From NCBI GenBank assembly GCA_016871615.1, contig VHCX01000001.1, positions 1 to 64,000 of the forward strand: DNA of 64,000 bases. The letters are read 5' to 3'. The notes under the pieces were generated by a model that did no database searches, was not told the origin of the DNA, and worked only from the letters and a program-made list of their open reading frames with translations. This DNA comes from Verrucomicrobiota bacterium (lineage in GTDB: Bacteria; Verrucomicrobiota; Verrucomicrobiia; Limisphaerales; UBA9464). The position numbers and the translations under genes were made by a program. Positions 20,425 to 32,074 of this stretch are shown piece after piece (position 1 is the first letter of the stretch; each line of letters begins with the position of its first letter).

Positions 20425-21507
20425 TCAATCCGCGTTGGGTTTGAAGCGGTCGGTGTTCCTCGCCCGCGAGATGGCCGCATCGTAGGTGATGTGGCACTTC
20501 GAGTAGAGGTCGTAGAGGCAGTTGTCCATGAGGACCGATCCGTCGCGCGCCCCCAGCTGCATGATGGTATAGAGCTGGTGCAAATCGTTCTCACGGATCA
20601 CGGCCCGGGCGGCCGGGGTCACCATGAGGAGCTCGTAGGCCAGGACCCGCCGGGTGCGGTCCACGCACGGCAGGAGTTCCTGCGAGATCACCCCCTGAAG
20701 CGAATTGGCCAATTGCAACACCACCTGTTTCTGGGCGCTGCCCTCGAAAATACCCACCACCCGCTCGAGCGCGTGCATGGCGCTCGGCGCATGGAGGGTG
20801 GCCAACACCAGGTGACCCGTCTCGGCGGCGGTCAGGGCCGTCTGGATCGTCTCATGGTCGCGCATCTCCCCGATGCAAATGACATCGGGATCCTGCCGCA
20901 GGGCGTGGATGAGCGCATGGTTGAAGGAACGGACATCGGTCAGCACCTCCTGTTGGACCACGATGGCCCGACGATTCTCATGCACCCGCTCGATGGGGTC
21001 CTCGATGGTCAGGATCTTGCACCGGCGCTCCCCGTTGATGAGGTCGATCATGTAGTTCATGGTCGTGCTCTTTCCGGCTCCGGTGGGACCGGTGATGAGG
21101 ACCAGCCCGTTGGTCTTGCGGGCCAACTCGTCGATGCGAGGGGGCAGGCCGAGTTCCTCGCGGGTCGGGAAGTGTTTGCCGCAGAATCGGCAACTCAGCT
21201 CGGTGACCCCGTTGCGCCGGTAGAACGTGACCCGGATCCGGCCTGCGACCGGGTGCCGAACGGAGATGCAGAGTTCCCAGCGGCGATCCAACGTCTCGCG
21301 CTGAAGGTCGGTCAGGAGCGATTGCGCCATGGCCTCGCATTCCTCAGGCCCCAGGGCATCCTCGTCGGCCAGGAGGATCTCGCCCGTCACTCGGAAGGCC
21401 GGTGGGACTCCGACGACGACGTGCAGATCGGAAGCAGCGAGCGAGACGGCGTCGATGAGCAGGCGGTCCATCCGTGGATGGATGAATTCGGCGATGGAAG
21501 GGTTCAT
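20425..21507 (-). CDS. PilT-type secretion/retraction ATPase
   Basis: A 360-residue hexameric ATPase of the type II/IV secretion family, closest in layout to PilT. Present are Walker A (GPTGAGKST, residues 140-148), the Asp box EDPIE, Walker B DVICIGEMRD (208-217) and the His box GHLVLATLHA (231-240). The linker before the core contains CRFC (C106, C109), a CxxC pair I do not expect in ordinary PilT. Its start overlaps the upstream TPR gene by ATGA, and it closes the ten-gene Ycf46 cluster. No pilin or pilus assembly gene is near, so it may drive something other than classical twitching. Confidence 0.88.
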   Translation of the reverse strand: MNPSIAEFIHPRMDRLLIDAVSLAASDLHVVVGVPPAFRVTGEILLADEDALGPEECEAMAQSLLTDLQRETLDRRWELCISVRHPVAGRIRVTFYRRNGVTELSCRFCGKHFPTREELGLPPRIDELARKTNGLVLITGPTGAGKSTTMNYMIDLINGERRCKILTIEDPIERVHENRRAIVVQQEVLTDVRSFNHALIHALRQDPDVICIGEMRDHETIQTALTAAETGHLVLATLHAPSAMHALERVVGIFEGSAQKQVVLQLANSLQGVISQELLPCVDRTRRVLAYELLMVTPAARAVIRENDLHQLYTIMQLGARDGSVLMDNCLYDLYSKCHITYDAAISRARNTDRFKPNAD

Positions 21508-22280
21508 GCGCTGAAAACTCGACGAACGAGGCCGGTGCACCTCTCCCAGACGCCGGGTCGATCGGAGCGGCTCAGGCCCTCGCGGGCCGCCAGCGAATCC
21601 GGCTGGATTTGCCAAGCCTGGGTGAACGACAGGCGGGCTTCTTCGTGGAACCCCAGCGCCAATTGGCATTCGCCGGCCAGCAGCCACGGCGAGATTTCGC
21701 CCGGAGCCAAGCTGCAGGCCTCACGGGCCGAGTGGAGGGCCTTGGCGAACTGACCATGCACGTGGCGGATCCGGCCGGCCAGCCAGGGACAGGTCCAGTC
21801 CGAGGAGCGGACGCTGCGGGCCCGCTCGAAGCAGTGATCGGCCTGCGTCTCCCGCCTCGACAAGAACACATCGCCGCGGGCCAGCCACACGTAGGCCGAA
21901 TCGCCCCGCTCCTCGAGACTGGCATCGGAGAAGGCCAGCGCGTTGTCGCGGTCTCCCAACCGGCCCAGAGCCACCGCCTTCGAGGCCAACAGGTCGGGAG
22001 CCTGCGGGAATCGCTCCAGGGCCTTGTCGGCCCACAAGCGGGCCTCGCGGAATTCACCCAACTCGATCAACGAGCGGACTTGCCCCGCCCAGGCCGGGAC
22101 GCTGGCCGGGTTGTGTTCGAGCACCCGGGCGAAGAGCCGCAACGCCAGTTCGAAGTCGCCCAGCTGGAACGCGCGCTCGGCCTCCGACGACCAATGCGAC
22201 TCGCCCGCCGCCGTCCGGAGGGACTGCTGCCCCGACGGCTCGGGTCCCGTTTCGAATTCCAGTTTTCCAAAGCGGCTCAT
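21504..22280 (-). CDS. Tetratricopeptide-repeat protein
   Basis: A 258-residue soluble protein without signal peptide. After ~30 variable residues it consists of about six TPR-like helix pairs (for example AERAFQLGDFELALRLFARV and the LAPGEISPWLLAGECQLALG segment), so it is probably an adaptor. It overlaps the S26-like gene upstream and the PilT-type ATPase downstream by ATGA at both ends. That suggests the three are made together, perhaps as a membrane complex. The function is unknown. Confidence 0.8.
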   Translation of the reverse strand: MSRFGKLEFETGPEPSGQQSLRTAAGESHWSSEAERAFQLGDFELALRLFARVLEHNPASVPAWAGQVRSLIELGEFREARLWADKALERFPQAPDLLASKAVALGRLGDRDNALAFSDASLEERGDSAYVWLARGDVFLSRRETQADHCFERARSVRSSDWTCPWLAGRIRHVHGQFAKALHSAREACSLAPGEISPWLLAGECQLALGFHEEARLSFTQAWQIQPDSLAAREGLSRSDRPGVWERCTGLVRRVFSA

Positions 22281-23239
22281 GGCTCGGTGCTCGGTGTGTT
22301 GAAGAACCATCGGCCATAGGCCCGGCCCAGAAAATCGGAATGTCGCACCGCCGACATGCGCAGGAAGGCCTCTGCGAAGGAATCGTCGGCAAGGCGGCGA
22401 ACCCCACCCATCATGACCCCTTCCCGGGGCGCTCGGACGGTGGGCCAGACGAACCACTGCTCGGGTTCCACCACCTGCTCGCCTTCCATCGGCATTCCGG
22501 GCAGGCGTGGCAAATCCCGGCCATTCACTCGCACCGCCTTCGGCGTGAAGGCGATGCGATCGCCCGGCAGCCCGAACACCCGGCCAAAGATCGGCCCCGG
22601 CGCGAAGACTCTCGGATAATCGCCCGGCGGCTGGATGCGGAATCCCTCCTGATGGAAGGCGATGGAATCTCCGCGCTGCACCTCAGCGGCCTGAATCCGG
22701 GGGTTGATCACCACGGTGCGATCCTCGGTGGTGATCCGCAAGGGATTGGCCACGTGACGCCGGAATTGATCGAAGGCCGGCAGGTAGACCAGCGAGTAAT
22801 AAATCGCCCAGCACACCAGCGGCAGCAAGATCCGTTCAGCGAGGCCGGCCGGGTGCCCCTGGTTCGCTTCACGCTGCCGGAGCATCAGGAAGGCCAGTCC
22901 GCTCGAATGGCAAGAAGCCATGCCTCCCATGAACCACCCCATGGTCGGGTGGCACAGCAAGATCAACGTGGCCGCGGCGCACAACCACCAACCGGCCAAG
23001 AAGACGCGGCCCAAGGTCCGCTGACCCAACAGCGCATACCCTCGGCCTGGAATGAGAGAGGCCGACAACCACTGGAGACCCGTCAATTCCAGCCAAACCC
23101 CACGACCGAGCGGGCCGCTCAACCACATCCACATCCGCCGGATCGCCAATCCCAGGCGATCCATCGCTTGGCCCAGTCGCGGGGAGACCCACCGACGCCC
23201 GGCGCGCGGCGGATAATAACTGGACGACTCGGAATCCAT
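22277..23239 (-). CDS. Multi-pass membrane protein with catalytically unusual S26 signal-peptidase-like domain
   Basis: A 320-residue protein. The first ~155 residues hold three or four hydrophobic segments. The C-terminal half resembles the S26 signal peptidase fold: RGDSIAF, FGRVFGLPGDRIAF and VRVNGRDLP followed by EQWFVW match the order of LepB conserved boxes. The serine box (SMxPT) is not seen, and the lysine that normally precedes the GLPGD box is replaced by FGR, so peptidase activity is doubtful. A GTG two codons upstream is an alternative start. It overlaps the TPR gene by ATGA and follows DUF2997 after a short gap. Confidence 0.7.
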   Translation of the reverse strand: MDSESSSYYPPRAGRRWVSPRLGQAMDRLGLAIRRMWMWLSGPLGRGVWLELTGLQWLSASLIPGRGYALLGQRTLGRVFLAGWWLCAAATLILLCHPTMGWFMGGMASCHSSGLAFLMLRQREANQGHPAGLAERILLPLVCWAIYYSLVYLPAFDQFRRHVANPLRITTEDRTVVINPRIQAAEVQRGDSIAFHQEGFRIQPPGDYPRVFAPGPIFGRVFGLPGDRIAFTPKAVRVNGRDLPRLPGMPMEGEQVVEPEQWFVWPTVRAPREGVMMGGVRRLADDSFAEAFLRMSAVRHSDFLGRAYGRWFFNTPSTEP

Positions 23240-23260
23240 CCGCACAGGAGGTTCGGTGCG

Positions 23261-23461
23261 TCAGTGCCTCTGCTCGTTGCGCAAGGTCACATCCTCGTCG
23301 GGCTCATAGTACCCGGAGGTGTGCCGCAGTTCCTGGGTCTGTCCGACGACCTGCTCGAAGAAGCGGATGGCCTCCACACAGCCCTTGCCCTGGAACCCCT
23401 CGACATGGATCTCCACCTCTCCGGTGGGTCCGATAGTGATCTCGTATTCGCGCGTTTTCAT
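23261..23461 (-). CDS. DUF2997 family small protein
   Basis: A 66-residue cytosolic protein. Its middle, GFQGKGCVEAIRFFEQVVG, has the DUF2997 pattern, where a short beta segment with alternating charge is followed by a GKGC motif and an amphipathic helix. In other bacteria this family often sits beside DUF1257 and Ycf46-type AAA proteins, as here. The function is unknown; the conserved cysteine in GKGC could be modified or bind a cofactor. It lies 16 bp after the DUF1257-like gene and is surely co-transcribed. Confidence 0.85.
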   Translation of the reverse strand: MKTREYEITIGPTGEVEIHVEGFQGKGCVEAIRFFEQVVGQTQELRHTSGYYEPDEDVTLRNEQRH

Positions 23462-23477
23462 GGATGCGTTGGTGGAG

Positions 23478-23951
23478 TCAATTCTGCCAATGACGAACCC
23501 GAAGGCGGATCGACTGGTTCTCGTCCACGGTCTCCTCGACCAGATCCATCCCCTTGCCCGCCATCTCGGACTTGAGCTTGGCGAGCACATAATGCTGCAC
23601 CGTCCGTCCGGCGACCTCATCGCCGATGGCGCGGAGCTGCTCGGCGGAAAGCCCCTCGCCCGTGACGCACACCGAATCGCGTCCCCGGGCATCGCGGCTG
23701 AATTCCACCTGCACGCCGTCCCGGATCAGGCGGATCCGCTGATCCCGCCCAAGGGTGCCTGTCACGGCCGAGCAGTTCGGAACGTCGAGGGTCACGGTGT
23801 TCGAAGCCGGGCGCAGATCTTGCGACACGCCCTCTTGGGCGGATTCACGGGCCACGGAGAACCCGATCGAAACCGCGGCCGAGGCGACGGCGGCACTGAT
23901 GGCGGGCCAGGAACTCACGACGATGGGGGCGATGATGGCGACGGCACTCAT
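23478..23951 (-). CDS. DUF1257 (Ycf35-like) protein
   Basis: A 157-residue protein. The C-terminal ~50 residues (QHYVLAKLKSEMAGKGMDLV followed by a short acidic strand and RLRVRHW) match the end of DUF1257/Ycf35 proteins. The middle (GRDQRIRLIRDGVQVEFSRDARG) fits the same family. The N-terminal ~35 residues are hydrophobic and alanine/serine-rich, unlike typical Ycf35, and could be a membrane segment. Neighbouring AAA ATPase and DUF2997 genes support the assignment, since this trio is recurrent. The molecular role is unknown. Confidence 0.72.
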   Translation of the reverse strand: MSAVAIIAPIVVSSWPAISAAVASAAVSIGFSVARESAQEGVSQDLRPASNTVTLDVPNCSAVTGTLGRDQRIRLIRDGVQVEFSRDARGRDSVCVTGEGLSAEQLRAIGDEVAGRTVQHYVLAKLKSEMAGKGMDLVEETVDENQSIRLRVRHWQN

Positions 23952-24011
23952 GGGATGAACCTGTGGAACGGCGTTGTGGGGTTGGACCGGGCTGGCGGGA
24001 AACCGTCACGC

Positions 24012-24035
24012 GGAATCCGGCGAGGAATCCGGCGA
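24012..24035. repeat. Short tandem repeat, 12-bp unit
   Basis: Two perfect adjacent copies of ggaatccggcga lie in the 92-bp spacer between the AAA ATPase and DUF1257-like genes, the widest gap in the cluster. It may be replication slippage; no regulatory role is visible. Confidence 0.7.
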
Positions 24036-24043
24036 GGGCGATT

Positions 24044-25609
24044 TCAGAACTCGACCTTGCGGGGCAGGTGTTCGCCCAGAGCGGCATGGCGCGGGGTGCT
24101 GGCGTTGCGCGCCCGTCCCTCGGACCAACTGCGAAGCCGGTTGATTTGCTCATCCATGGTCCGCGCCAGCGGCACGGTCTGGCGGATGGCCTGGAGGACA
24201 TGCTCGGTGGTGAGGTCCACCCCGTCGTAGAACGCCTCGTACAGGGCGCTGTTGATGGCCTCCTCGATCTCGGCGCCGCTGAAGTCGGCCGAGGCCGCCG
24301 CCAGGCGCGGCAGGTCGAAATTCTCCGGGAACCGCCCCCGTCGACCGATGTGCACCCGAAAGATGTCGGCACGCTCGGATTCGGCCGGCAAGTCGACGAA
24401 GAAGATCTCGTCGAGGCGGCCTTTGCGGAGCAGTTCGGCCGGCAGGTGCGAGATGTCGTTGGCCGTGGCGACCACGAACACCGGCGCGTTCTTCTCGCTC
24501 AGCCAGGTCAGGAAGGTCCCGAACACGCGGGCGGCCGTGCCGCCGTCGCTCGAGCCACTTCCCTGGGATCCAGAGAAGGCCTTGTCGATCTCGTCGACCC
24601 ACAAGATGGCTGGAGCGACCGACTCGGCGACCGCAATGGCGCGGCGCACGTTCTCTTCGGACGAGCCCACGAGGCTGCCGAACATCCGGCCCATGTCGAA
24701 GCGCAGCAGCGGCAGTTGCCACTGGCTGGAGATGGCCTTGGCGCAGAGACTCTTGCCGCACCCCTGCACTCCCAGCAGCAGCACCCCCTTGGGGAAGGGC
24801 AGCCCGAAGATCCGTGCCTCGGGCGAAAAGGCCGACGACCGCTTGGTGAGCCAATCCTTGAGGGTCGTCAAGCCGCCCACGTTCCCGAAGTTCTCGGTGG
24901 TGGCGTAGTACTCCAAAAGACCGCTCTTGCGGATGATTTGCTGCTTCTCGGCGAAGACCTGGTTGACGTCGTCACTGCTGAGACGGGCGTCCTTGACGAT
25001 GATCTTGGCGAACACGTTCTCGGCCTCACCGAGGGTCAGCCCCAGGGCGGCCTGCAGCAACCGGTCCCGGCCGGCGGCGTCGAGGTCGATCACCACCTCC
25101 TTGATGGCCCGAACGTCCTGCAGGATGCGGTCGAGCAGCGCTCCCAGGTCGTCCTTGGTGGGCAGCGGAAAGCTCAGGACGGTGAGTTCCTTGTCGAGTT
25201 CGGCCGGGATCTCCAGCAACGGCGAGACCAGGATCACCGTCTTGAAGCTGTTCTTCAGGTGCAGGGCGATGTCCTTGAGCTTGCGGATGACCGCGAAGTT
25301 GGATTTCACCAGGAACGGATGGAAATCCTTGAAGAGGAAGATCGCCGGCTCGACCTGCTCCAGGACCTGGTCGAGCGCCGCGAGCGGGTCCTTGGTGGCA
25401 CCGGAGCGGCCCTTCTGGCTCTGGATGTTGGCCCCGGCCGCCACGATGCCCGTCGAGTAGGACCACTCGAAGGCCTTCTTGCCCCGGCGGGCGGCGATGT
25501 CCAGCACCAGCGGCAGCACCCGTAACTCTTCACTGGTCTGGATGTAGATCAGCGGATAGCGGGCCCGGACGAGCACCTCGAGTTCAGAGGCGAAGGCGTT
25601 GGGAGTCAT
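24044..25609 (-). CDS. Ycf46-type AAA+ ATPase
   Basis: A 521-residue AAA+ protein with the Ycf46 layout. The N-terminal ~230 residues form a degenerate nucleotide-binding-like domain (begins [12 protein letters not shown] and includes [10 protein letters not shown]). The canonical AAA core follows, with Walker [10 protein letters not shown] (280-288), Walker B ILWVDEID (335-342), and the second region of homology with arginines R395 and R398. A four-helix lid is followed by a C-terminal helix. Ycf46 in cyanobacteria has been linked to carbon uptake, but the family is widespread and its substrate is unknown. Its start overlaps the upstream small gene by ATGA. Confidence 0.92.
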
Positions 25610-25914
25610 GGAGAAGGTGTAACACGATGGGTTGTAGGATCCCCGGAATCCAGCGCGGTCCGGAGGAGTGCCGCCAGTTCCGGGGTGAGATGATGGGCGA
25701 GGATGCGACCGTCGGGCAGCAGCATGAGTTCCGAAACCACCTGAACAGGCTCAGGAACGGCCACCGGTTCGTCGGGGGCCGCCTGCGGGGACGCTGGTCC
25801 GTTGGGTCCGGCCGATCGGATTGGATCAGGGGCTTCAAGGGTCGGATTCATTCCGGTCGAGGTCGCTTCGGTTGGGTTGAGGTCGATCAGCACTTGAGGC
25901 CTCCGACAGTTCAT
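25606..25914 (-). CDS. Small conserved-looking protein between radical SAM and AAA genes
   Basis: A 102-residue protein with a proline-rich disordered first half and a compact second half (ELMLLPDGRILAHHLTPELA) that reads like a short folded beta-hairpin/helix module. It overlaps the radical SAM stop (ATGA) and the AAA start (ATGA), which strongly supports real translation and coupling. I do not recognise a named family. It may be an adaptor or substrate of the neighbouring enzymes. Confidence 0.72.
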   Translation of the reverse strand: MNCRRPQVLIDLNPTEATSTGMNPTLEAPDPIRSAGPNGPASPQAAPDEPVAVPEPVQVVSELMLLPDGRILAHHLTPELAALLRTALDSGDPTTHRVTPSP

Positions 25915-26798
25915 TCGATGAGGCGCAGCCCGGCCTCGATGCCGATACGAGCGGCTTCCTGGGCTTCACCGATCCGTCCTGGAACGCGCAGTTCGGGATG
26001 CCGTCCGCTGAACCAACCGGGCCAGAAGCCCGTCCGAAGGCTGACCTCCACCCCGGGCAAGCTCGCCGCAATCCAAGCCGCGACCGGGCGCCAGCAGCAG
26101 TCCAAGTGTCCCGGCATGAGCAGGTGACGCACGATGAGCCGGGTGCTCCGGGCCGCCTGGATCAGGTTGGGGTGCACGCGGGCGCAATAGCCATCCACCC
26201 GGGCGATGCGGCGGGCGCAGTCGTCGTTGCCGAACTTGAGATCGGCTACCCAGCAGTCGAAGACCCCGTCCAGCAGCGCATGGGACTCCGGGGTGCCGTG
26301 GGCGTTGGTTTTCCACACCAACGGCAACCCGTCCGGCAGCGCGGCCACCAGATCCAAGACCGAGGCCAGGTGGATCGTCGGCTCGCCCCCGAGGATCATC
26401 AGGCTGCGCACCGCGCCGGATTCCCAAGCCCGACCGATGCGCGCCACCAGGGCTTCCTTCCCGGGACCGGCGGCAACGGAACCCGCCGACGCGTCCCAAC
26501 TCTCGCGCCCGGTGTTGCAGAAATCGCACCGGAGATCACACCCGCTGAAGGCCACCGCGAACACCGGGCACAGGTCGGATTCATCGCCCACCTCGACGCG
26601 TGCGCTGAAGAGGCGACCCTCGGGACCGGCGTGGCAAGGTCCTCGTTGGCCGGCCAACCGATCGACCCCGCAGCGATGGGAGCACCACAGGCAATGGCTC
26701 AACTGCCTCCGAGCCATCCCGGCCCGATGGGCCGCCAAAGCCGCCCGGGAACCCTTCGCCTGGGACGCGATTGGCGTCAAAAGAGTCGCCTCCACCAA
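25911..26798 (-). CDS. Radical SAM protein, PflX-like (COG1313 type)
   Basis: A 295-residue iron-sulfur enzyme. The radical SAM cluster motif is FSGCDLRCDFCNT (C87, C91, C94). An N-terminal cysteine set (CLWCSHRCGVDRLAGQRGPC; C36, C39, C43, C55) resembles the auxiliary motif of PflX/pyruvate-formate-lyase-activase-like proteins. GGEPTIH is the expected glycine-rich SAM-binding segment. No glycyl-radical enzyme is nearby, so its target is unknown and could be a protein of this cluster. The TTG start used here overlaps the preceding small gene by 22 bp; an in-frame GTG (next codon) or the ATG at MARRQLSH (27 codons in) are alternatives. Confidence 0.85.
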   Translation of the reverse strand: MVEATLLTPIASQAKGSRAALAAHRAGMARRQLSHCLWCSHRCGVDRLAGQRGPCHAGPEGRLFSARVEVGDESDLCPVFAVAFSGCDLRCDFCNTGRESWDASAGSVAAGPGKEALVARIGRAWESGAVRSLMILGGEPTIHLASVLDLVAALPDGLPLVWKTNAHGTPESHALLDGVFDCWVADLKFGNDDCARRIARVDGYCARVHPNLIQAARSTRLIVRHLLMPGHLDCCWRPVAAWIAASLPGVEVSLRTGFWPGWFSGRHPELRVPGRIGEAQEAARIGIEAGLRLIE

Positions 26799-27025
26799 GG
26801 TTTCGAGCCGACCTCCCGCGGCGAGATCGCCCCATGGGTCTGAGCCAGGCTGGCGACCACGCGCGAGCGGAGAGGCTCAGGCACGGATGTTTGCGAGCGA
26901 TCCCAGGCGATCAGCGCCTCGGGACTCTCGAAATCGCGAAGGCCCTCGACCTGCTGGCCCTGTCGCTGCTCGACCTCGAGGTCTTGTCGCCGGGTCTGCT
27001 GGAGTCGGGTGGACGGGGGATTCAT
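26777..27025 (-). CDS. Small protein following the ECF sigma factor
   Basis: An 82-residue charged protein with no signal peptide. Its central segment (FESPEALIAWDRSQTSVPEP followed by a short helix) and tryptophan-rich end (KPWWRRLF) look like a defined protein rather than a chance frame. It starts 11 bp after the sigma factor stop and overlaps the radical SAM start region. Position suggests a regulatory partner of the sigma factor, but it has no recognisable anti-sigma (zinc-finger) motif or membrane segment. Confidence 0.6.
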   Translation of the reverse strand: MNPPSTRLQQTRRQDLEVEQRQGQQVEGLRDFESPEALIAWDRSQTSVPEPLRSRVVASLAQTHGAISPREVGSKPWWRRLF

Positions 27026-27036
27026 GGCTTCAAGGT

Positions 27037-27690
27037 TCAGGCGGTCTTGGCGAAGGCCGTCGAGAAGGCCTTGCGGGCCCGATGCAGTTTGCCCCGGACG
27101 GCATCGGGGGTCTGCTGGGTGATTTCACCCACCTGCTCGTAGCTGAGGTCTTGGTCGGCCACCAGGAGCAGCAGGCAACGGTATTCGTCGGGCAACCGGT
27201 CGAGGGCGTTTTGGATCCGCTGCCCCAATTCCTTGGTCTCCAGCGCCCGAAGAGGATCGCGACCTGCGGAAGGTTCCGCCTCCAGCACGGACGCATCGTC
27301 GGCCAGGTGGATGTTCCGGGCCGACCATCGCTGACGGAGGTTGGTGCAGTGGTGGAGGGTGATCCGGTAGAGCCACGTGCGCACCTCGGATTCGCCCCGG
27401 AAGTCCCGGAAACTCCGGAAGGCCTTCACGAACACATCATGGGCGGCATCCTCGGCCTGGGCCGGGTCGCCCAGAAACCGGAGCGCCAAGTAATACACCG
27501 GCTGAGCATGCGCCGCATAGATGGCCTCGAACTCCGCAGTGAATCCGCCCTCTTGGCCTTGGGAACCCGCCTGCTCATGGACCTTCCCCTGCTCCACGCA
27601 GGCGATCTCCATGGGCTCGGGCGCGATCATCACTCCTTTGGACAGGGCCACCACGCAAGTGTCACGCGGGAAAACGCACTCTACCCCCAT
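27037..27690 (-). CDS. ECF-type RNA polymerase sigma factor
   Basis: A 217-residue sigma-70 family protein of the extracytoplasmic-function group. Sigma region 2 spans about residues 52-120 (FLGDPAQAEDAAHDVFVKAF, TWLYRITLHHC). Region 4 is near the C-terminus (RLPDEYRCLLLL, LSYEQVGEITQQTPDAVRGK), the usual helix-turn-helix for -35 recognition. The first ~45 residues are not conserved, so the start could be the later in-frame ATG at MIAPEPME. It heads the 20.4-27.7 kb cluster and is divergent from hisA, so it may activate its own operon. Confidence 0.9.
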   Translation of the reverse strand: MGVECVFPRDTCVVALSKGVMIAPEPMEIACVEQGKVHEQAGSQGQEGGFTAEFEAIYAAHAQPVYYLALRFLGDPAQAEDAAHDVFVKAFRSFRDFRGESEVRTWLYRITLHHCTNLRQRWSARNIHLADDASVLEAEPSAGRDPLRALETKELGQRIQNALDRLPDEYRCLLLLVADQDLSYEQVGEITQQTPDAVRGKLHRARKAFSTAFAKTA

Positions 27691-27796
27691 GGCTTCAGCC
27701 CCTTGAAACCCTTGAGACTGCGTCCCGACGTGCCTCGGACGCCCCGCTCGCCCAGCGCCTTCCCTCCGGAACGGTTGACCCCTAAGGTTCGCCCCT

Positions 27797-28567
27797 GTGT
27801 TTCGGCCGTGCATCGATTTGCGCCATGGGAAGGTGGTCCAGATCGTCGGGGGGACCCTCGACGACGCGGGCGCTTCCACGCTCACCCGCTTCCAATCGGA
27901 TCGCCCGCCCTCCTGGTACGCCGAGCTCTACCGGAAGGACGGCCTGACCGGGGGCCATGTGATCGCCCTGGGGCCGGGCAATGAGGCCGCGGCGCGTGAT
28001 GCGCTGGGGGCCTGGCCGGGCGGCCTCCAATATGGCGGCGGCGTGAACCTCAACAATGCCGCGGCCTGGCTCGAAGCCGGGGCCTCGCAGGTGATCGTCA
28101 CCTCCTGGGTGTTCCGCGACGGGCTTCTCGATCGGCAACGCCTCGCCGACCTCGTCCAGCGTGTGGGCAAAGAACGTCTGGTGCTGGACCTGAGCTGCCG
28201 CAAGCGCGACGGCCGGTACTGGGTGGTCACCGACCGTTGGCAGCGCTTCACCTCGCTGGAGGTCGATGAGGCCGTCTGCCACGACCTAGCCGGGTCCTGC
28301 TCCGAGTTCCTGATCCATGCCGTGGATGTCGAGGGGCTGTGCCGGGGCATTGATCTTGGGCTGGTCGAATCGCTCGCGCGCTGGTGCCCCATCCCAGCGA
28401 CCTACGCCGGCGGCGCCCGTTCGATCGACGACCTCAAGACCGTGCAACGCGTGGGCGGCGGTCGCATCCACCTGACCATCGGATCGGCCCTGGACCTCTT
28501 CGGTGGATCCGACGTCCGCTACGCCGACTGCGTCGAATTCAACCGATCCTGCCCCCTTCCCCGCTGA
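27797..28567 (+). CDS. hisA: Phosphoribosylformimino-5-aminoimidazole carboxamide ribotide isomerase, eukaryotic type
   Basis: Histidine biosynthesis step four, an Amadori rearrangement. The 256-residue TIM barrel matches the eukaryote-type (HIS6-like) HisA more than the usual bacterial form: it begins FRPCIDLRHGKVVQIVGG and contains GPGNEAAARDAL, LQYGGGVNL, LDLSCRKRDG and TYAGGARSIDDL. It starts with GTG. It stands apart from other his genes and runs 5 bp ahead of a glutaredoxin gene. This eukaryote-like form occurs sporadically in bacteria, so horizontal transfer or an old split are both possible. Confidence 0.9.
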   Translation: MFRPCIDLRHGKVVQIVGGTLDDAGASTLTRFQSDRPPSWYAELYRKDGLTGGHVIALGPGNEAAARDALGAWPGGLQYGGGVNLNNAAAWLEAGASQVIVTSWVFRDGLLDRQRLADLVQRVGKERLVLDLSCRKRDGRYWVVTDRWQRFTSLEVDEAVCHDLAGSCSEFLIHAVDVEGLCRGIDLGLVESLARWCPIPATYAGGARSIDDLKTVQRVGGGRIHLTIGSALDLFGGSDVRYADCVEFNRSCPLPR

Positions 28568-28888: not shown

Positions 28889-31800
28889 CTACGGATTGGC
28901 CGCGCCTGGAGATCCGCCGAGCCGGCTCGAGGCCTTCCAGGCGGCCGGTTGGTCGGAATAGGCACCAGGGCTCTTCAACTCCAAGGTGGATCCGTGCCCG
29001 TCGGCATCCACCGGCCACGGGGCCGAATCCTCGTAAGCCAGGCGCAGCACCAGGGATCCGTCGGCCGAGTGGATGCGCAGCGTGTCGCCGCCATTGCCCA
29101 GACCGAACCCGAACTCGCCCAGCGGCACCGGCCCCGCCGGGAACGCCCGCTGGAACCGCAAGGTGTCCTGGCACAGCACGGCGTACCCGCCGGCCGGAAT
29201 CCCTCCGCCCGGGATCACGGCGACATGGTCGTCGGTCACATCGCGCAGGATCCATCCGGTGAGGTCCACCGCCTCGGGACCCGGATTGTGCACCTCGAAC
29301 CAATCCCCGGAATCGGCCTCGGCCGACGGATGGTATTGGATCTCGGTGAGGATCACGGGCGGCCGAGCCGGCGGCACCGGCGAGTAGGCCTCCAGGCGCG
29401 CGGTCAGCGTGTTGGTCCCGATGGGCGGCTGGAACGACCAACGGCCCCCGGCCGTGTCGATGCCCCAACCACTCCAGCCCACCATGCGGAATCCCGGCTT
29501 GGGAACGACCGTGGCCACGACCGGCACATCCCGGAAGAAGGTGCCCATCCAGGGCGGCGGCGCGGACTCGGTGCGATTGAGCCGCACCTGCCCCGCCCCG
29601 GCCGGCGACACCACCGCCTGCAACTGGGCCAAGCCCGACTTCAGGCCGAAGTGGGCAAGGCAGTCCTGCCGCAGCTTGGCCGGGCGCCTTCGGGCGAAGT
29701 CGCCCAGCGAATCGATGTTCTTCTCCCAGGTCGCCTGGGTGAAGGGATCATACTCCGCCTGGTAGGGCTTGCCATACCCCCGTTTCTGCAACTCGGCGAA
29801 GCTCCAGCGCTGGAGGTGGCGGGGGATCTCGGGCCGGATCACCGCGGCCATGGAGCGGATCGTCGCCTCCACCCGCTCCTCGCGGAATGGCCCGTTCAGG
29901 AGGTCCGCACAGCGCTGGAGGAAGCGGGTTCGCACCTCCGGGTTGGCCAACAACCGACGCAGCATCAGGGTGCGTCCCCCCTCGTTGGGCCAACCGGTGC
30001 CGGTGCCGGTGCCGGCGGTCAGGAAGGCGAACATGTTGTCGTAGGACGCGTAGTCGCGGGCCATGGCCGGCACGTACACGTCGGGACGCCACAGGTGGAA
30101 CCCATAGTCCTGGTCGTACACGATCCACCGGAATTTCCCGTTGGGCACCCGGGGCCGCCAGCACTTGATGTTGCCGATGTCGAAGTTCTGGAAGTAGGCG
30201 ACCGACGCCTGGTAGCCGAGGAAGTTGTCCAGGTCCAGATACCGGTCGACCAACGTCTGCAGATTCGTGGCGACCGAAAGGTCCCTCGACGCCATGAATG
30301 AGCGCATCGCCGTGTAGGTCTGGCTGTCGCCGGCGATCACCGTGCCGTAGCCCTCGATCAGGTCGAGTCCGCCGCGGGGCACCTGATGGTTACCGATCAC
30401 GTGGTGCTCGTTGAGCTTCTCCCGCAGGTTGTGGATGCCCCAGTAGTCGCCGTTGAGGTACACGACCGTCGGCCGGTAGGCCTGCGTGTCGAGGCCGGTG
30501 TCGGCGATGAGCCGCTGCATCATCGCGTCACGCATCAGCGTGAACTGGCCGTTCACGAAGTAGCTGCCGTACGTGGTCACCGGCCCGAACTGGGTGATGG
30601 GCGAGCGCACCGCCGTCTGGTGGGTGCTCTGGTTGTCGTTGCCCGAGTTACGCAGCACCAGCGCCTCGAACTGGTCCATGGGACGGTCCGGGAAGAAGCG
30701 GTAGGCGAGGTTGCCGTCGCCGTACTTGGCGCGCGCCGACAGCGCGTAGGACTTCTGGGGGTACCCCCGCGAACCCCAGCCGCCATAGACCGACAGGCCG
30801 ACCTTCTGCCGGACCTTCGACTGGCGGTCGGCCTCGAAGAACTCGAAAACCACCTCGATCTCGCGGTCCTTCCAGGCATTGGACCCGGAGTACGGATAAT
30901 TTTGCAGCACCTGCCCGCTGGCGTTGAGAACGCTGGTGCCCATGCCGATGAGGTAGCCGTTCTTGAAGTCGAAGTTCGAGGCAGCCGCCGCCAGCGAGAT
31001 GACCGGCAGGTCGTGGGTGACGCCGAAGAAATAGCTGCGCATCGATTCCGCGCTGGAGCGCGCCTCGAGGTAGGCCTTGGCCCGGACCACCTGCGAACGC
31101 TGGATCCGCAAGGGTCCCGACCACGCCGGAGACACCACCGTGACCGGGTCCCCATTGGTCGTGTAGCGGATCAGGGCGTTGGTCGGCGAAGCCCGCAGTT
31201 CCAGCAACACCTCGGCACCCGCCGCATGGAACCCCGAATCGACCGAGAACGCCGGCGGCGGCAGGGGCGGCCCCACCGAGACGGCACCATTGGCCGCCCC
31301 CGGCGTGGCCTGCGACTTCGAGTACACGACCCATTCCCCGGTCTCGGGGTTGGGCGGACGACCGAGCGACTCGTTGGGCCCCAGTCGCGGGATGGCCACC
31401 TCGTCGACACGGCGACCTTCCGCATCACTGAGGGTCAGGGTCTCGCCGGCGGCATCGAGGCGGAAGTCGGTGTGCAGCTCGGAGCCGGGCCCAACGCGAT
31501 CCAGGCCCGAGGCGTACACCAGAATCGACTGCCCGGGCTGGATCCACCCTTCCGGGAACCGCCATCGGCCCGGCCTCAGCGGGTCATCGGACAGGGCGAA
31601 GCCGGTCAGGTCCACGGCCTGATCCTGCGGGTTGGTGATCTCGACCCAGTCCCAGAAGGCCCCGGAGGCGTCGGGGGCCACGCCAGCGTTGTCGCTCATC
31701 ACCTCGGTGATCCGGAGGCGGCCGGCGGCGGAACCCTCGGCAAGCAACCGGTAGAACCGCGTCGAAGGCCCGGCCGGCTCCGAAATACGCACCCGAAACC

Positions 31801-32074
31801 GCCCGGGAACCACCTCCGAGACCAAGGCCGTGGGATCGAGCACCCACACCGGGGATCCGACCAACCGCTCGGCCACCTGGACGCGGTAGGCTTGAGGATC
31901 CTCGGGATCTGCCGACACCTCGAAGATCAACCCGCCGCCCACGGGGCGCTGGATCGAGTCGGGCAACACGAACGGAGGCCGCGGCACCTGTGCCTCAAGA
32001 CGGCCCCCGCCGGGCGGCACCAGCGCCACCCACGAGGCCACGAGGAGCAGGCCTCTGAGCCTCGGCCAGGTCAC
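28889..32074 (-). CDS. Secreted CotH-kinase/lamin-tail domain protein
   Basis: A 1061-residue exported protein starting with GTG and a signal peptide (residues 1-29, cleavage near LEA). Domains in order: a lamin-tail domain (~115-235, LRITEVMSDNAG, WVEITNP), a chitobiase/hexosaminidase C-terminal-like beta domain (~275-345, ALIRYTTNGDPV), a CotH-type domain (~350-700, GIHNLREKLNEH, IVYDQDYGFHLW), a spacer, and a second lamin-tail domain (~935-1045, VILTEIQYHPSAEADSGDWF). CotH proteins include protein kinases. In this lineage such proteins are large, secreted and of unknown substrate. Its GTG overlaps the preceding TPR gene stop (GTGA). Confidence 0.88.
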   Translation of the reverse strand: MTWPRLRGLLLVASWVALVPPGGGRLEAQVPRPPFVLPDSIQRPVGGGLIFEVSADPEDPQAYRVQVAERLVGSPVWVLDPTALVSEVVPGRFRVRISEPAGPSTRFYRLLAEGSAAGRLRITEVMSDNAGVAPDASGAFWDWVEITNPQDQAVDLTGFALSDDPLRPGRWRFPEGWIQPGQSILVYASGLDRVGPGSELHTDFRLDAAGETLTLSDAEGRRVDEVAIPRLGPNESLGRPPNPETGEWVVYSKSQATPGAANGAVSVGPPLPPPAFSVDSGFHAAGAEVLLELRASPTNALIRYTTNGDPVTVVSPAWSGPLRIQRSQVVRAKAYLEARSSAESMRSYFFGVTHDLPVISLAAAASNFDFKNGYLIGMGTSVLNASGQVLQNYPYSGSNAWKDREIEVVFEFFEADRQSKVRQKVGLSVYGGWGSRGYPQKSYALSARAKYGDGNLAYRFFPDRPMDQFEALVLRNSGNDNQSTHQTAVRSPITQFGPVTTYGSYFVNGQFTLMRDAMMQRLIADTGLDTQAYRPTVVYLNGDYWGIHNLREKLNEHHVIGNHQVPRGGLDLIEGYGTVIAGDSQTYTAMRSFMASRDLSVATNLQTLVDRYLDLDNFLGYQASVAYFQNFDIGNIKCWRPRVPNGKFRWIVYDQDYGFHLWRPDVYVPAMARDYASYDNMFAFLTAGTGTGTGWPNEGGRTLMLRRLLANPEVRTRFLQRCADLLNGPFREERVEATIRSMAAVIRPEIPRHLQRWSFAELQKRGYGKPYQAEYDPFTQATWEKNIDSLGDFARRRPAKLRQDCLAHFGLKSGLAQLQAVVSPAGAGQVRLNRTESAPPPWMGTFFRDVPVVATVVPKPGFRMVGWSGWGIDTAGGRWSFQPPIGTNTLTARLEAYSPVPPARPPVILTEIQYHPSAEADSGDWFEVHNPGPEAVDLTGWILRDVTDDHVAVIPGGGIPAGGYAVLCQDTLRFQRAFPAGPVPLGEFGFGLGNGGDTLRIHSADGSLVLRLAYEDSAPWPVDADGHGSTLELKSPGAYSDQPAAWKASSRLGGSPGAANP

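Follow-up and report, generated by a model that had tools for sequence, protein, structure and literature searches.

The window analysed here, a 64,000-nucleotide stretch of a Verrucomicrobiota genome (contig 1 of the 3.8-Mb draft genome G000), carries on its minus strand ten co-oriented and tightly packed genes, running from position 27630 down to 20425, that can be divided into two layers. The backbone consists of an extracytoplasmic function (ECF) sigma factor, a small protein termed sm1, a Ycf46-type AAA ATPase, a tetratricopeptide repeat (TPR) protein and a PilT-family ATPase. The block, which flanks the AAA gene on both sides, comprises a radical S-adenosylmethionine (SAM) enzyme, its ~80-aa partner sm2, a divergent DUF1257 homologue, a DUF2997 protein and a signal peptidase (SPase)-like membrane protein. 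The block is gained or lost as a unit by lineages, and elsewhere the same core of AAA ATPase and DUF2997 adjoins a second, unrelated kind of radical SAM enzyme. The reading tentatively favoured here is that the ten genes encode a two-layered, membrane-docked system for protein remodelling, in which an AAA machine would be combined with a radical SAM modification step.

The block behaves as a unit

Gene content was compared across about 140 relatives, drawn from 110 loci and 60 further neighbourhoods, with 49 loci having enough flanking DNA for patterns to be counted. The nearest loci belong to uncultured Verrucomicrobia metagenome-assembled genomes (MAGs), with AAA ATPases 93-94% identical to that of the window; MAGs titled Akkermansia and Rubrivivax, probably mislabelled bins, were left out of the claims. 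Since the gene order is conserved in dozens of genomes, the set is not a chance assembly. Among the well-flanked loci, the five block genes were all present in 22 and all absent in 20, so that the block was either whole or missing in 42 of the 49; four loci kept only the radical SAM and sm2 genes and three only the radical SAM gene, and sm2 occurred only together with radical SAM. The backbone stands without the block at L056, L064, L068, L074, L078, L084 and L104.

The same association is seen at the level of whole genomes. Indeed, orthologous radical SAM and DUF1257 genes were both present in 13 of 37 genomes and both absent in 22, and each was found alone in a single genome; as the genomes are drafts, these last two cases may be gaps. 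A type-A DUF1257 gene was located elsewhere in the genome in three of the four genomes whose locus kept only radical SAM and sm2, in none of the genomes whose locus was devoid of the block, and additionally in a single genome that has no orthologous radical SAM gene at its AAA locus. The orthologous radical SAM gene follows the same genome-wide pattern as type-A DUF1257, and in three genomes with a split operon (G409, G411 and G412) the missing half was found at another site. When mapped on the AAA tree, the block required about ten changes (about 8-11; bootstrap 9-11), with at least five changes forced by strongly supported branches. No phylogenetically independent pair went in the opposite direction (four to five pairs lie on strong branches), and the SPase-like gene is linked to DUF1257 as tightly as any other gene (5/5 independent pairs). 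The initial annotation had proposed that the ten genes form one system, and for the radical SAM, sm2, DUF1257, DUF2997 and SPase-like genes this is borne out by strict co-inheritance; in relatives, the AAA-DUF1257-DUF2997 trio does lack the radical SAM, TPR and PilT genes in some cluster types, a condition that is not universal.

The AAA core and its radical SAM partners

The AAA ATPase (24044-25609), which belongs to both layers and is present in a single copy in the genome, matches PF00004 with 96.7 bits. It has a Cdc48-like AAA domain in which Walker A, Walker B and arginine-finger motifs can be read, preceded by an N-domain that is conserved as far as phages and plasmids. In particular, it is 47% identical over residues 5-504 to an AAA ATPase located within a DUF1257/DUF2997 cluster on a plasmid of the cyanobacterium Pseudanabaena, and the label "Ycf46-type" refers to the AAA domain and N-domain shared with this homologue. 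The next block gene (23478-23951) had been described as DUF1257-like. Its product does not match PF06868 at E 0.1 or 0.05, but the homology holds in profile-profile comparison with true DUF1257 (hhalign probability 93.7% over 110 columns, against 14.7% for a reversed control), so that by this measure the protein is a divergent DUF1257 homologue outside Pfam membership; tblastn from a single DUF1257 sequence was too insensitive. Its predicted structure is of modest confidence (pLDDT 67.8), and the fold matches are not interpretable, with a best Foldseek E of 0.04 and VIA Z values of at most 6.7 on unrelated folds.

The DUF2997 protein (23261-23461) is assigned by PF11211 (48.4 bits, cut-off 24.1) and by alignment, and retains the G-x2-G-x2-C motif, with G14, G22, G25, C28 and G40 invariant among 51 sequences. 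The predicted model (pLDDT 67.6) consists of a beta hairpin followed by a helix with C28 in its first turn, and gave VIA Z scores of 2.2 at most. A role of the motif as a glycyl-radical or cysteine substrate site peculiar to clusters with radical SAM was considered and rejected; since the motif is invariant also where radical SAM is absent, it can be at most a shared site. DUF1257 and DUF2997 accompany the AAA ATPase in phages, plasmids and chromosomes, and for this reason they would be dedicated partners or adaptors of an AAA unfoldase.

The radical SAM gene (25911-26738, with a start at TTG 26738 or ATG 26717) is recognized by PF04055 (31.5 bits, cut-off 29.5) and by homologue alignment. Ten cysteines are invariant in 25 sequences (CxxC-x3-C...C, CxxxCxxC, CA and CCW), together with a GGEPT motif; these include the CxxxCxxC triad (C60, C64 and C67), and the seven further cysteines suggest that the enzyme may hold auxiliary clusters. 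It had been called PflX-like, which turned out to be a resemblance only: the nearest solved relative is the pyruvate formate-lyase (PFL) activase (E 5e-4), and no family model past the general radical SAM one reaches its cut-off, the PFL activase model TIGR02493 scoring 23 bits against the 231.75 needed. Two side observations concern this gene. In one genome devoid of DUF1257, a truncated remnant of 145 aa adjoins an AAA gene (G408:C220:3895-4302), possibly as a decaying block, and in two loci the gene for a ~320-aa protein separates radical SAM from sm2 (L048:3662-4651, the copy without a Pfam match, and L047:2516-3478).

The small protein sm2 (25606-25914) is coupled to both the radical SAM and the AAA gene, and its sequence has a conserved core, ELLxLPDGRILAHNLTP, with a helix predicted after it, and is framed by variable tails. 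Neither sm1 nor sm2 matches a family in Pfam or NCBIfam, and a profile search of the PDB with sm2 returned nothing under E 0.3. The earlier suggestion of a modified small protein or peptide handled at the membrane stands as far as the tie between sm2 and radical SAM is concerned. It could be extended to a ribosomal precursor peptide that is modified by the radical SAM enzyme, then processed and exported at the membrane, which would agree with the exclusive occurrence of sm2 beside radical SAM and with the translational coupling of the two genes (4-bp overlap in 16 of 31 relatives). However, a conserved core with variable tails is not the expected conserved leader with a variable core, the alignment holds no conserved cysteine, neither a transporter nor an active peptidase is encoded at the locus (the SPase-like protein being dead, see below), and no match to the PqqD-type recognition domain (PF05402) of ribosomally synthesized and post-translationally modified peptides (RiPPs) was found at E 10 in 23 members, by which the identification of sm2 as such a domain was also rejected. 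RiPPs free of cysteine exist. Overall, a peptide-maturation system is improbable.

Radical SAM enzymes of another kind are found in clusters of the same order, where a true DUF1257 (PF06868, 90 bits) is followed by DUF2997, a Fer4_12/NrdG-type radical SAM enzyme and the AAA ATPase, and then by WD40 or HEAT proteins (L157 also has an Hsp70). NrdG-like radical SAM genes adjoin the AAA-DUF2997 pair at L143, L144, L153, L157 and L159, and are neighbours of AAA or DUF2997 on three unrelated plasmids, from Paenibacillus polymyxa (in the order AAA-DUF1257-DUF2997-radical SAM), Arthrobacter and Treponema, the Treponema gene lying beside tail-spike-like genes. Among 43 neighbourhoods that lack the window-type block, 8 showed a radical SAM signature at a distance of up to 2.5 kb, whereas 743 kb of background contained none, the zero being a small-number estimate and the neighbourhoods not being mutually independent. 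The window-type and NrdG-like enzymes share general radical SAM similarity only, and the presence of two such kinds beside the same core therefore makes radical chemistry a recurrent partner of the set. An origin of sm2 as the detached C-terminal tail of NrdG-like enzymes was discarded (hhalign just 8.6%). On the Treponema succinifaciens plasmid pTRESU01 (L112, L202), a window-type AAA (52% identity) has as neighbours a radical SAM gene and a gene for a phage baseplate V protein, and DUF2997 is encoded further along beside spike- and tail-like genes, possibly as part of a contractile-injection cluster.

This repeated partnership can also be read in the opposite direction, with AAA, DUF1257 and DUF2997 acting as an activase or assembly chaperone that would load or repair a radical SAM (Fe-S) enzyme. 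This enzyme would produce a cofactor or other small molecule, and the membrane proteins together with PilT would have a separate function next to it. Two unrelated radical SAM types attached to one trio would fit such a role, as would the Hsp70 gene adjoining one of the NrdG-containing (type B) clusters, the Hsp70/GrpE genes adjoining the Pseudanabaena plasmid cluster, and the cyanobacterial DUF2997 and ycf35 (DUF1257) pair that lies beside the ferredoxin gene fed7 (PMC4284462). On the other hand, many AAA-DUF1257-DUF2997 clusters contain no radical SAM at all, and the tight linkage of the SPase-like gene to DUF1257 in every independent pair argues against a separate function for it; an activase is considered unlikely, though not negligible. 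A further alternative is a conflict or defence system with AAA and repeat proteins as sensor and radical SAM making an antiviral product. The occurrence of related AAA ATPases on phages and conjugative plasmids, a weak similarity to the defence ATPase IetA restricted to the AAA domain, and the HEAT, WD40 and Hsp70 neighbours in type B clusters would be in line with it, but the AAA-domain similarity is generic, the match to viperin is marginal (E 0.009), and the chromosomal order is conserved across families together with an ECF regulator, all of which makes defence very improbable.

The membrane protein, the pilus link and the operon layout

The SPase-like protein (22277-23239) matches the signal peptidase S26 domain (27.8 bits, cut-off 22.9) and, by profile, SipA (4n31, E 4e-4). 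The degenerate signal peptidase fold of the initial annotation is supported by alignment: the catalytic Lys is absent in 28/28 homologues, with Gly in its place in 24, and the SMxP motif is lost at the Ser position, so that the Ser-Lys dyad of an active signal peptidase I is missing and the protein is, judging from its residues, catalytically dead. A second membrane protein occurs in relatives. A rhomboid homologue (PF01694) lies between sm1 and radical SAM in 12 of 29 block loci and in 0 of 20 others, the window being without it; GxSG is missing in all 14 copies of the Verrucomicrobiota loci L043-L079 (for example L048:2143-2799, L046:6298-6942 and L051:6286-6942) and is present in the copy of the Kiritimatiellota locus L108.

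Downstream, the TPR protein (21504-22280) is identified by its repeats in Pfam and by its conserved position, and the last gene (20425-21507) encodes a PilT/PilU-family ATPase (TIGR01420, 374.5 bits against a cut-off of 319.1). The latter is the third PilT-family ATPase over cut-off in the genome and an accessory paralogue outside the type IV pilus (T4P) clusters, with PilB, PilC and the other PilT genes placed on other contigs or far away. The order radical SAM-AAA-DUF1257-DUF2997-SPase-TPR-PilT is shared by loci of the same phylum (L195, L197) and of Planctomycetota (L105/L200, L110/L201), and L183 has the same set, but there the radical SAM gene is encoded on the other strand and adjoins PilT; PilT and TPR thus travel with the set in the Planctomycetes-Verrucomicrobia-Chlamydiae (PVC) group. 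Kiritimatiellota L108 has a shorter AAA-DUF1257-DUF2997 version, and the ECF sigma gene is not constant in the PVC set, being absent in L083 and L105 (the sequence upstream of L110 is too short to tell). A link to a PilT motor is confined to PVC bacteria, and there PilT is a backbone member. The proposed link between a handled peptide and a secretory motor is therefore not upheld, since the backbone, with PilT and the ECF sigma as members, also occurs without the block.

Alternatively, the operon as a whole could tune T4P retraction under its own ECF sigma, with the block merely adapting the AAA ATPase to oxygen or redox conditions. Sigma, sm1, AAA, TPR and PilT do stand alone in many genomes, and the pilus genes PilB, PilT and PilC are encoded elsewhere in the same genome; yet this would leave unexplained why this AAA family is accompanied by DUF1257/DUF2997 or radical SAM on phages and plasmids and in clusters devoid of PilT, and retraction control is rated as distinctly unlikely. 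Under the favoured reading of a two-layered remodelling system, the AAA ring would be the motor that unfolds, extracts or releases a client; the radical SAM enzyme, with sm2 as obligate partner or substrate, would modify a polypeptide; the dead signal peptidase would hold the client, a membrane or exported protein, by its hydrophobic or signal segment, as proposed for SipA in streptococcal pilus assembly; and TPR and PilT would couple the output to the T4P machinery encoded elsewhere. The most economical client, as a guess, would be a pilin or a pilus-assembly factor.

Several observations weigh against this proposal. The ten genes include no substrate, pilin or export gene, and the sequence bears no direct sign of a modification of sm2 or DUF2997, C28 of the latter being equally invariant where radical SAM is absent. 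Many AAA-DUF1257-DUF2997 clusters, such as L149, L158, phage RHph_I4 and the Pseudanabaena plasmid, lack radical SAM, and many lack PilT as well. PilT and TPR in turn occur without the block, so that the pilus link concerns the backbone rather than the radical chemistry and, PilT being a backbone gene, is weakest for the block. Finally, the independent pairs on strong branches are few, and the tree-corrected pair test therefore cannot reach significance.

At the upstream end, the sigma factor (27037-27630) is over cut-off for Sigma70_r2 and r4_2 in Pfam/NCBIfam, and its start is probably 27630 rather than 27690, given an AGGAG upstream and a length matching relatives. The ~80-aa soluble sm1 (26777-27025) always adjoins the sigma gene, in relatives with and without the block, and from this adjacency it is possibly an anti-sigma factor or sigma partner. 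All ten reading frames and their right-to-left order were confirmed as annotated. As for the five reported overlaps, the four of ATGA type are real (radical SAM/sm2 25911-25914, sm2/AAA 25606-25609, SPase/TPR 22277-22280 and TPR/PilT 21504-21507), the last three being kept as 4-bp overlaps in 13/32, 23/32 and 32/42 relatives, respectively. The fifth, of 22 bp, needs an unlikely radical SAM start at TTG 26798; homologues fit 26738 or 26717, which leaves a short gap, and the overlap is thus probably not real. The 92-bp gap between the AAA gene (end 24044) and the DUF1257-like gene (start 23951) was confirmed. In many relatives its site is filled by the gene for a protein of ~100 aa that has two hydrophobic stretches and ends in a YKxSPLSRDExxKARSKL tail (L046:9564-9875, L048:6367-6666). 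Beyond the operon, a short divergent intergenic region (27690-27797) separates the sigma gene from a HisA-like gene on the plus strand (27797-28567), followed by a glutaredoxin-like gene, a pair that adjoins the operon in close relatives only. A large minus-strand frame (28889-32074, 1061 aa) resembles by eye a CotH-type protein with lamin-tail-like domains. No known RNA family was found in the window.

Relation to known systems

The component families are known, and their combination, the behaviour of the block and the recurring partnership with radical SAM seem not to have been described. No description of the ten-gene cluster was found in the literature searched, which lay outside subscription papers and in which just three papers name DUF1257/DUF2997, and no mechanism for Ycf35, Ycf46 or DUF2997 was found there. 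These three proteins are conserved in cyanobacteria and algal plastids. It is somewhat doubtful, though conceivable, that the operon represents an undescribed class of systems in which a Cdc48-like AAA ATPase, DUF1257/DUF2997, radical SAM and dead membrane proteases modify and remodel a membrane or exported protein, with at least two unrelated radical SAM kinds independently recruited to the AAA-DUF2997 core. If this is true, such recruitment in different phyla and plasmids would place Ycf35 and Ycf46 in a radical- or redox-linked protein-remodelling pathway. The sharply bounded, unit-wise block and the repeated radical SAM link provide a concrete testable hypothesis, joining radical chemistry to AAA remodelling, and name a minimal gene set for it.

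The closest parallels share parts of this set. The cyanobacterial and plastid Ycf35-DUF2997-Fed7 cluster, with Ycf46, resembles the operon in having adjacent DUF2997 and DUF1257 genes linked to an iron-sulphur protein (PMC4284462), and differs from it in that the operon has radical SAM in place of ferredoxin, a divergent DUF1257, added SPase-like, TPR and PilT genes and ECF regulation. The type B clusters (L143, L144, L153 and L157) bring the same four core functions together, but with an unrelated radical SAM subtype and without sm2, SPase-like and PilT genes. The operon PilT belongs to the same TIGR01420 family as the T4P retraction ATPases PilT and PilU and differs in its position outside T4P clusters. 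As for the membrane component, Streptococcus SipA, without which pili are not polymerised, is an inactive signal peptidase that carries a Lys-to-Gly exchange and keeps its peptide cleft (PMC4049620). The SPase-like protein shares with it the fold, the exchange of catalytic Lys for Gly and the loss of Ser; unlike SipA, it has a further N-terminal hydrophobic region and a PilT ATPase as neighbour, with no sortase gene among the ten genes and no sortase or pilin genes adjacent. A dead signal peptidase and a dead rhomboid beside a Cdc48-like ATPase would form a bacterial parallel to membrane-protein extraction systems.

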